The position numbers were made by a program, and so were the translations under genes. A DNA stretch of 64,000 nucleotides from contig NZ_CP007035.1 of assembly GCF_000243115.2 (NCBI RefSeq), forward strand, positions 1,426,001 to 1,490,000. The letters run 5' to 3'. This document shows, in pieces, positions 688 through 8,250 of this stretch (its first letter is position 1; every line of letters begins with the position of its first letter). The stretch comes from Niabella soli DSM 19437 (GTDB lineage Bacteria > Bacteroidota > Bacteroidia > Chitinophagales > Chitinophagaceae). The notes below the pieces were generated by a model, which did no database searches, was not told where the DNA came from, and saw only the letters and a program-made list of their open reading frames with translations.

Positions 688-1101
688 ATGATAAATGACA
701 AAAGAATACATCAGGGCCGAAATGTAAAACGCTTCCGTGAAATGCTGGGTATAAAGCAGGATGCCCTTGCCTATGAGCTTGGGGATGATTGGAACCAGCA
801 AAAAATTTCCCTGCTGGAACAAAAAGAAACCATTGATGCACCCCTGCTTCAACAGATCTCCGATGCACTAAAAATACCGGTGGAAGCGATACAGAATTTT
901 GATGAGGAACAAGCGGTGAATGTAATAGCAAATACATTTGGTGATAATGCTTGCGTAGGAAATCCTAATTCTACTTTTAACTTCAATCCTATTGAAGAAT
1001 TAAAAAAATTACATGAAGAAAAAATCGCTTTGTTTGAACGAATGCTAGAAGAAAAAGATGAGATGATGGCCGAGTTAAAAAAACTAATACCGGCAAAGTA
1101 A
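688..1101 (+). CDS. XRE-family transcriptional regulator with C-terminal coiled coil
   Basis: This 137-residue protein has an N-terminal XRE helix-turn-helix (about residues 8-65, GRNVKRFREMLGIKQDALAY onward) and a C-terminal charged amphipathic helix (residues 100-137, rich in E/K, of the form EELKKLHEEK), probably a dimerising coiled coil. This architecture is common in Bacteroidota and usually lacks an assigned target. It lies directly next to the minus-strand restriction-like operon and converges on it, so a role in controlling that operon is possible but not shown. Confidence 0.8.
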   Translation: MINDKRIHQGRNVKRFREMLGIKQDALAYELGDDWNQQKISLLEQKETIDAPLLQQISDALKIPVEAIQNFDEEQAVNVIANTFGDNACVGNPNSTFNFNPIEELKKLHEEKIALFERMLEEKDEMMAELKKLIPAK

Positions 1102-1111
1102 TTTTTTATTA

Positions 1112-1235
1112 GGGCGTGCCCCGGCCCGGCCAGCACACAAAAGCAACACACAGCCGGGGTCGGGCTATCCGCTATATCTTTTGCTCCGTTGCACTCCACA
1201 AAAGGATGCTGCTGCTATCCCTCACGCGGGGGGAA
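1112..1235 (-). ncRNA. Structured Bacteroidota interspersed repeat (Flavo-1-like), copy 1
   Basis: Read on the minus strand it begins GCGTGAGGGATAGCAGC, contains ATAGCGGATAGCCCGAC and ends in GGGGCACGCCC. These segments recur in the same order at 8133-8250 on the opposite strand. The motif order recalls a very abundant structured element of Bacteroidota genomes that I associate with the Flavo-1 RNA family; that name is from memory and needs a covariance search. It lies downstream of the restriction-like operon in the same orientation, so it could form part of its 3' UTR. Confidence 0.45.
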
Positions 1236-1359: not shown

Positions 1360-2337
1360 TTAACTGTTGCAAAATAATATTGAATCGCGAAAATGAATGG
1401 TGTTAACAGGAGTAATTTCTGATAAATCTGATTTATAGTGGACGTCAAAGACGTTATTCGGAATATGAATTTGTTCAATTTTTTCAATATCCTGATGCCT
1501 GTAAAATCGTAATGATTGTTTGGCAATTTCATAATCAAATTTTATTCCAATAGAGTGTTCTAAGGAATTTGCAAGCGTTTTACATACAAGACCATTTAAT
1601 TTATCTATTTGCTTACAGTCATTGCCGATTTTCTCTGAAATACTGTTTATTAATTGCTGAATATCTATACCTAAGTTATGTTGCCTTACAAATATGGAGG
1701 CAATCAAAACTTGAGAATCCGGTGGCGGATTTAGCTGTTCGGACGAGAAAGAATGCTTGCGTTCAAAAATAGAACTACTTTTAACTTCTATTCTTTCTCT
1801 TCCCGCATTGAAATCAAATTTTTCTTCGGGCATGCTGTGCCAATAATTTAAAAGCGTTTGCGGACTCTTTGCATTATCAATCAAAAACAACTCCGCCCAA
1901 AGCCCGTTCACGGTGTTTGTTGGTATATCTGCTAATGTTTTAAATATTTCAACAAATCTTTTCAAAGAATCAACAACTTGCTGTTGCGTAGGGCTTTTAC
2001 CAATAGCCTTCACAAGAGTTTCCGATATTCTTAAAAAGTACTCCAGCAAATTTCTGTCAGCACTTCTAAAAGTAATTACTGTAAAAGTCTGTAGTCTGCT
2101 TCTGCCATTTTCTGAAATTTTACACTCAATATTTTGTTCAAGCTGTAAGTATTTCAGACGGAAATTTTTCAGACTACTATCTTTTATTCGTTTAGTAACA
2201 GACAGCAATAAAACTGCATTGCCCTCAACGTCTATAGCAATTCTAAATTCTGGATATTCGGGAATGGCAATAGCATTGAAAACTTTGTTGTCGCTTTCGG
2301 GAATTGAAAGGGCATCGTATAGCTCAATTAAATTCAT
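1360..2337 (-). CDS. PD-(D/E)XK motif protein (DUF4420-like), restriction-like system nuclease
   Basis: This 325-residue protein is the last gene of the five-gene defence operon. Near residues 185-195 a PD-(D/E)XK nuclease core is visible: an acidic residue in KFDFNAG followed by the E-x-K signature in RERIEVKSSS. The size and flanks fit the DUF4420/'PD-(D/E)XK motif protein' family, which accompanies Z1-domain and MutL/MORC-like ATPases in restriction systems (Iyer, Abhiman and Aravind 2008). It is presumably the DNA-cleaving subunit. Its ATG overlaps the Z1 gene stop (ATGA), so the two are translationally coupled. Confidence 0.85.
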   Translation of the reverse strand: MNLIELYDALSIPESDNKVFNAIAIPEYPEFRIAIDVEGNAVLLLSVTKRIKDSSLKNFRLKYLQLEQNIECKISENGRSRLQTFTVITFRSADRNLLEYFLRISETLVKAIGKSPTQQQVVDSLKRFVEIFKTLADIPTNTVNGLWAELFLIDNAKSPQTLLNYWHSMPEEKFDFNAGRERIEVKSSSIFERKHSFSSEQLNPPPDSQVLIASIFVRQHNLGIDIQQLINSISEKIGNDCKQIDKLNGLVCKTLANSLEHSIGIKFDYEIAKQSLRFYRHQDIEKIEQIHIPNNVFDVHYKSDLSEITPVNTIHFRDSILFCNS

Positions 2338-4550
2338 ACTTGCCTGATTATGTCTGTGCCGATATGTTCAGGAATCCAAATTGCAAGTGTAGGAACTCTT
2401 GTAAATTCTGTATCTCTTATATTCAGCAAGTGAATTTGAATAGTCAATAAATCATCTTCCCTAATTTCTGAATCGCCCGGGTAGATTACTTCGCCTGTTC
2501 TTGGGTTTCGTCCTTGAAAAAGCTGCTGTATTTCTTGGTTTCTGTCAAGCCTACGAGTTCTTCCTGTCCAATTATCAATGGAGTTAGCACTCATCAAATA
2601 AACCAAACATTCATCGTCTGGATGTTCTTCAATATATCCTTTTAAAATACCACGCAAACTTGAATAGGTTGCGGAATCACTTTCTCTTGTGTAACGTAGC
2701 TTATTTAGCAAATGCTCCAAACAGTCTTTGATCGTAATTCTTGCAACCAAATGCTTTTGTTCCTCAGTTCGGTTTGCGTGTCCCACATCTTGTGTAAAGT
2801 TTGCAGAAATTGATTGTAGAAATGCAAAAAGAGCTTCTCTGTTTATGTCAATAAGTTCTTCTGTGTCGTGTGGTGCGTTTATTCTAAACCAGTCGTTACC
2901 AAACGTATCTCTGTCCAAATCATCATAAATAACTGCCCGTCTTGTTAGATTGAGCATTTGGTCTAATACTGCTTCTCTGTGCCAATTATTCAAGTGCTTG
3001 TTGTTAAGGTCAAACTCTAAAAGTCTGTTTCTTACATCTTCTTCGTGCTCAACAATGAAATTGTAAAAATCAATTGTTACTTGGCCAAGATAAACACGAC
3101 AAAAACCCAAGTAATTTCTTTTGTATCCAAAAAACCTTGCTCGCTGTTGAATAGCATCAACATTTCCTGCTCCGATATTTCTCGGCATATAAGTAACGGT
3201 CAATCCGTTAACTGTAAATCCTCTATCCATTGATTGCCCGCCTACTAAAATCCAAGAATATGAATCATTCCAAGGAATCTGCGGTGTTTCACCGTTTCGT
3301 GAGTTCACCTCTACAAGTTGCGTGTATTTTATTGCGTGAATCAAATTAGTTCCTGTCAAATCTTGAAACGGTTGTAAGTTTGAAACCGTTTGACGTAATT
3401 GATTGTATGAAGTTTGGAACTCGTTTAATAATTCTTGTTTTTCATCGTTGCCATTTCCGGACAACAGCCTTTGCCAACTATTACAAGTGTTACGAATCCA
3501 ATTTGTAAAATCGCTATGATCGCCCTGTAATCTTGAAGGGTGAACAAGCATTGTTCTGTTTCTTTGACCTTTATTTATTTTCCCTGCAACAACGCCTAGA
3601 AAGAAAATTCGCAAAGCACTTTTCAGGCTTTCTGGAATTTCAAACAACTGATTATTATTTGTTGAAATTTCGTTGGCTGGAATTTCTGCAACTAAGTTCG
3701 GATTATTCCTAAAAAACTCAATTCCGCCTATGTATTCTTGCCCGGGCGTTAATAACCGAATGAAATTTGGCGAAAGTCTATCCATAATATTAATGAATAG
3801 ATTTGCTTGCGGTGTTGCCGTATATTGTAAAAATGTATGATGTGGAAAAATAGAACGTAAAGCCGTTATTCTTCTATAAATTGTTGAAACTTGGTTTTCG
3901 GTTAAATTTTCAATATCAATTCCTTGTCTTGCTGCCCACCTTGCTCTTGTGTTCAAACTTGCTTGGTCGCCCTCGTCATCTATTATTAAAGTTGGAACGC
4001 CTTGTAATTTTTGTCCGTGTAGAACGTTTGCCAAATTATTTAAGTGAGCTTGATTTTTCATTACGGTAATGAGCAAGGTTCTATGTTCATCTTCGGGAAA
4101 TGTGTCGTCAGCCCATTGTGCCAAAACCATTTCAATAGTTTCAAAATCTTGCGTTCTACTTGGATTTTGAAGCAAAGTCCATTTTCTATCAAAACGTTTC
4201 TCAAGGTTTAAATCTTCTGATAAACGTTGTGTTGTTTGATTAACCAAGTTGTTTGAAACACCCGCAATTACAACGACGATTTGATAATTGTTATCTTTTG
4301 CCAATGCTGTAAGCGTAGTAAAAGAAAGCGTTTTGCCACTCTGAACGTAACCAATTACAATTCCTGTTTCGTTGTTAGTTACATCATTTGGATTACCACA
4401 AGCTTGCATTATACGAAGCGTCTCATTTAAAACCCGTTCATCGTTTTCAAAACCTTTTCTTTGAAGCAAGCCCAATGTTTCTTCTCCCACAAACGGTTGC
4501 CATTCGCCGTTTGTATTATTATTATCTTGTATTTCAATTATTTCTGTCAT
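2334..4550 (-). CDS. Z1-domain helicase-like ATPase of the defence operon
   Basis: This protein of about 738 residues has superfamily-2-like motifs. Walker A is GYVQSGKT (near residue 70), Walker B is TLIIDDEGD, motif III is QYTATPQ, and late motifs GGQSMDRGFTVNG and QQRARFFGYK include the arginine finger. These are hallmarks of the Z1 domain, found next to MutL/MORC ATPases, PD-(D/E)XK nucleases and DNA methylases. I start it at the ATG at 4550 (MTEIIEIQ), 7 nt after the ATPase stop; an in-frame ATG at 4577 would overlap the upstream gene. Its probable role is ATP-driven remodelling or translocation during restriction. Confidence 0.88.
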   Translation of the reverse strand: MTEIIEIQDNNNTNGEWQPFVGEETLGLLQRKGFENDERVLNETLRIMQACGNPNDVTNNETGIVIGYVQSGKTLSFTTLTALAKDNNYQIVVVIAGVSNNLVNQTTQRLSEDLNLEKRFDRKWTLLQNPSRTQDFETIEMVLAQWADDTFPEDEHRTLLITVMKNQAHLNNLANVLHGQKLQGVPTLIIDDEGDQASLNTRARWAARQGIDIENLTENQVSTIYRRITALRSIFPHHTFLQYTATPQANLFINIMDRLSPNFIRLLTPGQEYIGGIEFFRNNPNLVAEIPANEISTNNNQLFEIPESLKSALRIFFLGVVAGKINKGQRNRTMLVHPSRLQGDHSDFTNWIRNTCNSWQRLLSGNGNDEKQELLNEFQTSYNQLRQTVSNLQPFQDLTGTNLIHAIKYTQLVEVNSRNGETPQIPWNDSYSWILVGGQSMDRGFTVNGLTVTYMPRNIGAGNVDAIQQRARFFGYKRNYLGFCRVYLGQVTIDFYNFIVEHEEDVRNRLLEFDLNNKHLNNWHREAVLDQMLNLTRRAVIYDDLDRDTFGNDWFRINAPHDTEELIDINREALFAFLQSISANFTQDVGHANRTEEQKHLVARITIKDCLEHLLNKLRYTRESDSATYSSLRGILKGYIEEHPDDECLVYLMSANSIDNWTGRTRRLDRNQEIQQLFQGRNPRTGEVIYPGDSEIREDDLLTIQIHLLNIRDTEFTRVPTLAIWIPEHIGTDIIRQV

Positions 4551-4557
4551 AAGTAAC

Positions 4558-6093
4558 TTATTTTGATAAGTTGGCAATTAGTTCATTGAAGTTTCTACGT
4601 ACTTCGCCTTGATTTTTGTAACTGTCTTTTGCAATGATTTCAGAAAGTCCAAAAGCTGCAGCAATACGAAGTATAGGCTCAATTTTGTTTGTATCTGCTC
4701 CTGCAAATTCAACCATAAAGGGGTGGGTAAGTGAAAGTCTAATGCCAATTTGTCTAACAGAAGAATTTCTTACTTTTTCTTTTATGAAGCTGTCGCCAAC
4801 TTCTATTAGCTCAGTTAATGACGGGTCGTAAGACAATTCTATGGAAACTTTCCAATCCGTCTTATTAAATCGTAAATCAAATTCCCGATGTAGCGTTTGT
4901 TCTGTTTTCGTCAAACCTTCTTTTTCGGGTGTTTCAACAGCAGAAACGTTATTGACAACATCTGCAACTGCTTGCGGTGCTTTCTTTTCAAAATCATTAA
5001 CCGTTTCATCAAGAGCTTTAACGGCTGCTTTGTATTCTTTTTCGGTTGCCCTTACTCTGTACTGTTCCGCTTGTTGTAAAAGTGGAAATTCTTTTGAGCT
5101 AATATCATCTTTTAAAAGACGTAAGAAAATATCAAGGTTTTCGTCCCATTGAATACCCTTTTTGGTGAAGTTCACACTAAATCCATCCAGGTGCAACTCT
5201 CCAAAAACCCTTTGATACCGATAACTATTTGGTGCTCCAAAAATAAAATCAGGTCTAAATCCTTCGTCAAAACTTCCTTCAATTACACGTCCTCTTCGGA
5301 ATAAAGCAAATCCCGCTTCTGCTGTCGATGCTTTTTCTCGAATGGCTACAAATCCATGGACACTTAATACTTCTGCAATATCAAAATCAATTTCTTTACG
5401 CCAAAGAATAGGTTCTCCGCTAGGCTCATCGTGTTTTGGAACATTTAAAACGTTGGGATCATTAAATATTAGTTCTTCGCCATTCAAGGTAAGTTTCAAT
5501 ATCCCCTTGCGAATAAATTCGCGATAAATGCTCCGTAAATGGTCTTTTACTTTTGCAACTCCTTTACGTTTTGGAATACGGTTTACATTATATAACTCTA
5601 CTACTGTGTAATGGTGTTTTTTATCGCAAGGTTTCGCCTCGACATCTAATTCCTCCAATTTATCCTCAAATATTTTTTGCATATCAAAGACAACTTTTTT
5701 CACATTGTCTTCTCGTAATGCGGTTGTTGTTACACACCAATTATCTGCAAACCAACAAGCAGCAGACTTCATTCCCATTCCAAATTCTGATAAGCCAGAA
5801 TTATCAGGTGGGACTTCTGCAGCTCTAAATGCTCGTGCGTAGTCGGCTTGGCCAATTCCGCCTGCATTATCCCGGATAGTGATTCTATTTTCAGGTTCAT
5901 TGATTTCCACCCTTACTTCCAGTTGGAAATTTTCTCCTTCAACTTCTTTGATAGCCTTTTCGTTTTTCAAATAGCTATCAATCGCATTGTCAATAAATTC
6001 AGCCAATGCAAACCATGTCTGATACTCTATGTGTTTTAAAACAGAGAGCATAGTAACCTGCGGACGGATGTTTACTTTATTTTGCTGTTTCAT
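4558..6093 (-). CDS. GHKL (MutL/MORC-type) ATP-binding protein of the defence operon
   Basis: This 511-residue protein has an N-terminal Bergerat-fold ATPase: N-box FALAEFIDNAIDSY (about residues 27-40), G1 box IRDNAGGIG and G2 box EFGMGMKSAACWF. The remainder is a helical C-terminal region. Such MutL/MORC-like ATPases are the signature subunit of one class of restriction systems and of Mza-type defence. I chose the ATG at 6093 (MKQQNKVNIRPQ) over the ORF's first codon at 6138 because the latter intrudes 62 nt into the methyltransferase; from 6093 the overlap is 17 nt. ATP-driven dimer closure on DNA is the usual mechanism of the family. Confidence 0.88.
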   Translation of the reverse strand: MKQQNKVNIRPQVTMLSVLKHIEYQTWFALAEFIDNAIDSYLKNEKAIKEVEGENFQLEVRVEINEPENRITIRDNAGGIGQADYARAFRAAEVPPDNSGLSEFGMGMKSAACWFADNWCVTTTALREDNVKKVVFDMQKIFEDKLEELDVEAKPCDKKHHYTVVELYNVNRIPKRKGVAKVKDHLRSIYREFIRKGILKLTLNGEELIFNDPNVLNVPKHDEPSGEPILWRKEIDFDIAEVLSVHGFVAIREKASTAEAGFALFRRGRVIEGSFDEGFRPDFIFGAPNSYRYQRVFGELHLDGFSVNFTKKGIQWDENLDIFLRLLKDDISSKEFPLLQQAEQYRVRATEKEYKAAVKALDETVNDFEKKAPQAVADVVNNVSAVETPEKEGLTKTEQTLHREFDLRFNKTDWKVSIELSYDPSLTELIEVGDSFIKEKVRNSSVRQIGIRLSLTHPFMVEFAGADTNKIEPILRIAAAFGLSEIIAKDSYKNQGEVRRNFNELIANLSK

Positions 6094-7429
6094 TTTGCAA
6101 CATTGAAAATTGCTGTACCTCTTTAGGAGCAGTACCATTCAATTTTTTGGGCTCTTGTTTTTCATACAAAAGTTGTTCAGCTATCAATTTCACAATTTTC
6201 GAATTTACTGCATTACCCAAAGCCTTGAATGCCGTAGTGTCGTTTGAAGGCAATTCCAAACCCTCTAATGATTGCAGTTTCAAGGCTTCGTCTTTTGTGA
6301 TGTATCGTTTTTGCCAACCGATAATGGGAATTTGTGTATTAGTGCAAACAAGTGAGGGGAAAAAATCAACTTTTTTTATCCTTATTCCTGACGCTCTGAA
6401 CTGTAAAATATAATCATTAATTTTTCTTTTACCGTCACCAACATTCCATTCCAATTTTTGCCAACTCTGTGAATCATACTTTGCAATTTCTTTCACAACA
6501 TCTTGTACATATTTTTTATTGTCTTGGTAAAATCCCCTACTGTGTCTGATATAACTACGTTTCCAATTGGGAAATGCCTTTTCAACTCTTGAATAACTTG
6601 GCATATTAATTCGCTGTTGATCTTTGGTCATGCCTTTCAAAGCAATTCCGAAATTGCCTTTGAACTCACCTAACTCAATTGCAGAAAGTTTGAAAGGATA
6701 GGAAGTCTCAAAGGGATATGTCGCTCCGAATTCCATACCCCAAACAGGAAACCCCGGTAATTTTGTGTCTTTCGGAATTTGTTCAATGAAACGTTGCCAC
6801 AGTTTTATACACTCTTGGTTTGCTTTTGGAAGTGCTTTAAATTTAGCAGGATGTTCTTCAACGAATTGGTGAATATCAATCAAAGAAGTCTTTTGTTCGT
6901 CAATTTCTTTGAATGAAAAATGCTCAAGACCTACCAGAGAACCAACAATGAAAATTCTTTTACGATGTTGTGGAATTCCAAAATCTTGTGGCGAATAAAC
7001 TTCATGCTCAACTTCATACCCCAACTTCGTAAGTTCGGAATGCATATAGTTCCATGTTGCTTCGTTATCATGCTGTCGAATGAACGGAACATTTTCAAGA
7101 ATGAAAAATTTTGGCTTACGGTGTGCAAGAATTTTTACAATCTCATCAAATAAAGTCCCTCTCTCTTCGTCTTCTCTGCCTTTTTGCTTTCCCGCTTTAC
7201 TAAATGGCTGACACGGAAAACCTGCGCAAAGGATATCGTGTTCAGGAATGCTGTCAATGTCGTGATCAACTATTTTTCTAATATCACCTTTCGGTTCAAT
7301 TCCCCAGTTTGTTTTATAAACCTCACGTAATGTCTGGCTAAGTTCACTTGCAAAAACGCACTCATGTCCAAGTTCGTGTAACGCCTTATGAAAGCCTCCA
7401 AGCCCTGCAAATAAATCTATAAATTTCAT
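6077..7429 (-). CDS. DNA (cytosine-5) methyltransferase of the restriction-like operon
   Basis: This 450-residue protein has the full set of m5C-methylase motifs: motif I DLFAGLGG, motif IV GFPCQPFSKAG with the catalytic Cys, motif VI LENV, motif VIII IPQHRKRIF and a C-terminal motif X around ALGNAVNSKIV. The target-recognition region lies between residues 200 and 370. It is the modification component that would mark self DNA. It lies second in the operon, 59 nt after the small first gene, and overlaps the GHKL ATPase gene. The recognition sequence cannot be read from the protein. Confidence 0.93.
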   Translation of the reverse strand: MKFIDLFAGLGGFHKALHELGHECVFASELSQTLREVYKTNWGIEPKGDIRKIVDHDIDSIPEHDILCAGFPCQPFSKAGKQKGREDEERGTLFDEIVKILAHRKPKFFILENVPFIRQHDNEATWNYMHSELTKLGYEVEHEVYSPQDFGIPQHRKRIFIVGSLVGLEHFSFKEIDEQKTSLIDIHQFVEEHPAKFKALPKANQECIKLWQRFIEQIPKDTKLPGFPVWGMEFGATYPFETSYPFKLSAIELGEFKGNFGIALKGMTKDQQRINMPSYSRVEKAFPNWKRSYIRHSRGFYQDNKKYVQDVVKEIAKYDSQSWQKLEWNVGDGKRKINDYILQFRASGIRIKKVDFFPSLVCTNTQIPIIGWQKRYITKDEALKLQSLEGLELPSNDTTAFKALGNAVNSKIVKLIAEQLLYEKQEPKKLNGTAPKEVQQFSMLQNETAK

Positions 7430-7488
7430 TAATTCTATTTAATAATCAATTTTCATCAAAATCCAATAGCGAGTCGTTCGATGAGGTG

Positions 7489-7836
7489 TTAAAGAGTTTT
7501 TATAGACTGTTTTATATGGTTCGCCATTTCTTTCAAGCGTCGTTTATCATCTACAAATTCCTCAAATATTTCTTTATCTAATTTGCTATAAGAGCTCATT
7601 CCCCTCCCGTTATGTGTTGGATCAATCGCCAAAAAATTAGAGAGTTTTAAACTTACTCCGTTGGGATTCCTAAATTTTTCAGTGTCTGGTCTGTCCATAA
7701 ATAATGGTAAAGCATTAAGCACCTCTGAAAGTTCAATGATCTTAGGATTTTTTGCATCGATAGAACCTCTATTGGAATCAAAATAAAGTTCTAATGCTAA
7801 TATAATTTCGGTTCTATGCCACTTTGGATTTTTCAT
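7489..7836 (-). CDS. Small protein resembling the N-terminal domain of HNH/McrA-type endonucleases
   Basis: This 115-residue protein is first in the defence operon. The pattern RTEIILALELYF, then FRNPNGVSLKLSNFLAIDP, then GRGMSSYSKLDKEIFEEFVD, looks like the domain found at the N-terminus of many HNH endonucleases of the McrA type. Here the ORF stops at the end of that domain and no HNH motif follows in any nearby frame. It is therefore either a free-standing DNA-binding or specificity subunit or the remnant of a longer nuclease. The family resemblance is from memory; its function in this operon is unknown. Confidence 0.7.
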   Translation of the reverse strand: MKNPKWHRTEIILALELYFDSNRGSIDAKNPKIIELSEVLNALPLFMDRPDTEKFRNPNGVSLKLSNFLAIDPTHNGRGMSSYSKLDKEIFEEFVDDKRRLKEMANHIKQSIKTL

Positions 7837-8132
7837 AAAATAAAATCAAATTAATGATACTTGCATATTCATACAGCTCATTGGTTATTAATGCAAATAG
7901 CGCTAGCAGCAGCAGGGCTAAAATATAACATTTTTTGCACATTTTCATTCTTCCGCTAACCTACAAATGCCTATTAATGATTTTTTATATCAAATTTTAT
8001 ATTTTCCTCTGGATTCTGCTTACGGAAAACCATAATCGACCAATATTTCCTATTCTTAAGTTTGCCCTGCCACACTGACAATTACAAAATAAAAAAGCCG
8101 GGTTGGTTTCAATTTTGTTGTTAACGGGTGCC

Positions 8133-8250
8133 CGCGTGAGGGATAGCAGCGGATACCCCGCTGAAGCTCTTGTGCGGTGGGTACCGCGGCTGAGTATAAG
8201 CGGATAGCCCGGCCGTGTCCTGGCCTGGTGTAGCGGGCTGGGGGCACGCC
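8133..8250 (+). ncRNA. Structured Bacteroidota interspersed repeat (Flavo-1-like), copy 2
   Basis: It begins GCGTGAGGGATAGCAGCGG, contains AGCGGATAGCCCGGCC and ends GGGGGCACGCC, as in the copy at 1112-1235 but on the other strand. Together the two copies bracket the restriction-like operon and point outward. The stretch 7837-8132 between the operon start and this element is AT-rich and shows no gene; it should hold the operon promoter, though I could not single one out. Confidence 0.45.

Follow-up and report, generated by a model that had tools for sequence, protein, structure and literature searches.

A four-gene set with a MORC ATPase in Niabella soli that looks like a predicted DNA-cutting defence system

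The Gene Set and Its Parts

The window analysed here is a stretch of 64,000 nucleotides from Niabella soli DSM 19437 (contig NZ_CP007035.1), and its subject is a set of four linked genes encoding a nuclease (NUC), a MORC-family ATPase, a core protein between these two, and a DNA cytosine-5 methyltransferase (M5C). A small gene lies upstream and an inverted repeat flanks the cassette (Table 1).

Table 1. Coordinates, in window positions, of the four core genes, the small gene and the flanking repeat (aa, amino acids; ORF, open reading frame)
Feature	Position	Strand	Basis or remark
NUC, DUF4420 nuclease of PD-(D/E)XK fold, 325 aa	1360..2337	-	
Core gene between MORC ATPase and NUC	2334..4550	-	
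MORC-family GHKL-S5 ATPase, 511 aa counted from the conserved ATG	4558..6093	-	Long ORF starts at 6138
M5C, DNA cytosine-5 methyltransferase, 450 aa, modification subunit	6077..7429	-	Pfam, TIGR00675, HhaI methylase likeness, motifs
Small gene, 115 aa, stand-alone N-terminal domain of HNH endonucleases	7489..7836	-	PADLOC HNH PDLC04132
Left copy of perfect 20-nt inverted repeat flanking the cassette	1211..1230	+	Inside longer imperfect repeat
Right copy of the same repeat	8131..8150	-	Inside longer imperfect repeat

M5C scored 230 bits with Pfam DNA_methylase and 227 bits, over the cut-off, with TIGR00675 (dcm); methylase motifs were present, and its best solved relative was the HhaI methylase. 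The fold of the MORC ATPase matched MORC2, MORC3, MORC4 and SMCHD1, and the MORC motif GhXhhpXXRhl was present as GFALFRRGRVI at residues 261-271. The gene set also includes a superfamily II (SF-II) helicase with a C-terminal domain bearing DThhQXuRhFG. The E-D-ExK residues of NUC (E149, D175, E184 and K186) were invariant among 31 aligned sequences, and structural matches to the restriction endonuclease (RE) fold were obtained with modest Z. Foldseek by itself returned no credible row for NUC, and no strong fold match was found for its residues 1-120.

Comparison With Predicted MORC Restriction Operons

Iyer, Abhiman and Aravind described this gene set in 2008 as their third type of MORC operon (PMC2292703; this and most other papers are cited from the available parts of their text). 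Common to that type and the present set are a MORC GHKL-S5 ATPase, an SF-II helicase with a distinct C-terminal domain, a novel RE-fold nuclease with E-D-ExK and, often, a cytosine methylase. The 2008 operon is, in the part of the paper available, a prediction only. An earlier sequence-only reading of the window had applied the restriction-system prediction of Iyer et al.; the MORC motif, the helicase C-terminal motif and E-D-ExK were all found. The observation is partly confirmed, and the interpretation overall is partly supported. Judged from their sequences, the four linked genes look like a DNA-cutting defence system of the kind predicted in 2008. A laboratory test of such a system was not found in the open-access literature searched. 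Relative to the 2008 description, the present analysis brings the fixed four-gene order, the lack of AIPR and the exchange of the methylase; the order may already be displayed in figure 2 of PMC2292703. The new points beyond the known gene set are that the small gene is left out of the unit and that the methylase seems to have been swapped.

The chromatin proteins MORC and SMCHD1 of eukaryotes are related to bacterial MORC proteins. A 2021 paper described the molecular and biochemical side of the bacterial proteins as poorly understood (PMC8011034), and the open-access literature searched yielded no worked-out bacterial MORC protein. The compact four-gene set offers a small system for testing MORC action on DNA.

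Conservation and the Place of the Methylase

Gene neighbourhoods were surveyed at 46 related loci, as the sequence-only reading had proposed. In 43 of them the family methylase was the immediate upstream neighbour of MORC; 37 of these loci are complete, 5 are truncated at the opposite end, and the last is L045. The four-gene set was complete in many species, and the usual methylase was absent from 3 loci.

M5C is the part whose evolution departs from that of the other three core genes, and the methylase gene appears to have been swapped independently of them. How firmly the methylase belongs with the other three genes was weighed as a rival reading, to which the separate evolution and the 3 loci lend some weight, as does VcSduA, a Shedu protein with a GHKL domain that restricts phage and so exemplifies methylase-free GHKL plus PD-(D/E)XK defence (PMC12137116). 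We consider this reading unlikely, however, given the position of the methylase in the 43 relatives, the target-recognition region of M5C, which is conserved to about the same degree as the rest of the protein, and the assignment of the family to restriction operons by Iyer et al. (PMC2292703). The separate evolution of the methylase raises the question of which subunit reads the site.

Comparison With Mza and Other Known Systems

Mza reportedly comprises mzaABCDE, from work by Gao et al. in 2020. Membership of the present gene set in Mza is extremely improbable, and we regard it as ruled out by the missing AIPR and the low model scores. NCBIfam scores were far beneath the cut-offs (27.5 vs 850 bits for MzaB, 132.8 vs 1500 bits for MzaC), and AIPR (PF10592) had no match in the N. 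soli genome, which bears out the earlier remark that the operon, unlike Mza, has no AIPR gene. The AIPR check covered 36 of the 46 loci, in 35 genomes; AIPR was absent in 31 of these genomes, and the remaining 4 have their match outside the locus, as judged by position and frame length.

Mza is also cited in a 2022 gene-embedding paper that proposes a putative defence system with the same core (PMC9523054). As given in its available part, type II of that system has AIPR, for which the N. soli genome again offered no match, and type I has six genes, whereas the present set is without AIPR and has MORC built in. CglI and NgoAVII differ in having a nuclease of B3 plus phospholipase-D type and three genes, with no MORC among those described in the accessible text (PMC4267653); none of the five proteins gave a Pfam match to such a domain, which is that of their R protein. 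The Corynebacterium diphtheriae BH8 island additionally has an EcoRII-like nuclease and three unclassified proteins, in the part seen, and the term GHKL appears nowhere in the main text on it (PMC5379612).

The Small Upstream Gene

The sequence-only reading had proposed a five-gene operon. The four core genes stood as members, whereas the small gene did not: it lies outside the block of DNA similarity common to relatives, and a homologue was found in only 1 of the 46 loci at the search used (L011, a full 256-aa HNH enzyme behind NUC). Where relatives align far enough, the similarity in DNA begins at the methylase start (about 7426-7449) and extends almost to the NUC end, with its NUC-side limit at about 1370-1460 in closer relatives and at 1290 in Chitinophaga eiseniae. 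Another homologue is present at L063, a locus from a viral collection.

The small gene matched PADLOC HNH PDLC04132 over profile positions 26-125 of 286 only. The HNH nuclease domain was not found in its 115 aa, nor was HNH-like sequence seen by eye in three frames of 7420-7560. Its domain occurred in 37 of 395 genomes, the N. soli genome included; 30 of the 37 open frames were 240-281 aa long, compared with 118 aa for that of the window, and the HNH part was also present in 29 of the 32 other frames fetched. The nearest homologue (G017, 70% identical; dN 0.29, dS saturated) is one of the three frames without it; in G017 the HNH part lies in an overlapping ORF of its own, and the 20 kb read contained no core gene.

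Alternatively, the small gene could encode a fifth subunit that gives specificity as an independent DNA-reading domain. It shares the strand of the core genes and lies 59 bp upstream of them, its frame is intact and well matched in G017, and HNH relatives adjoin NUC in L011 (6 bp) and L063 (70 bp). Even so, we think this quite unlikely, since no homologue was found in 45 of the 46 relatives at the search used, the gene lies beyond the shared DNA block and lacks the HNH part that most fetched homologues carry, and the home of its nearest homologue shows no core gene. The small gene is probably a truncated neighbour rather than a subunit, and would represent the N-terminal half of an HNH enzyme, with the nuclease half missing. 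At L077 (1501-3345), the domain fronts a protein of >600 aa, in which neither a Pfam match at E 0.001 nor an HNH part was found.

Flanking Repeats and Neighbouring Genes

A 17-mer of the flanking repeat has just two copies in the 4.7 Mb genome. The repeat looks like a dispersed repeat because related copies occur elsewhere and a similar stretch lies beside the DUF4262 homologue in G015; its reading as the terminal repeat of a mobile element is not supported. In a search of G015 and G009 for an empty site, matches fell out of window order and none could be named. Copies of MORC with 90-92% identity were present in Chitinophaga eiseniae and in two metagenome-assembled genomes (MAGs), one labelled Ignavibacteria and one Bacteroidetes; binning errors may have made the MAG labels wrong. 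No match to MORC was found in 50,697 phage records. Large serine recombinases lay upstream in all five IMG/VR loci tested (L064-L068, out of nine examined).

Vsr endonuclease genes adjoin the system at L039 (8231-8659) and L062 (9337-9804), with a weaker, partial match at L046; Iyer et al. remarked on Vsr genes beside such operons (PMC2292703). XRE-type regulators that resemble each other occur close to the system both in the window (688-1101) and in Chitinophaga eiseniae (L008, 6802-7242), on a different side of it in each.
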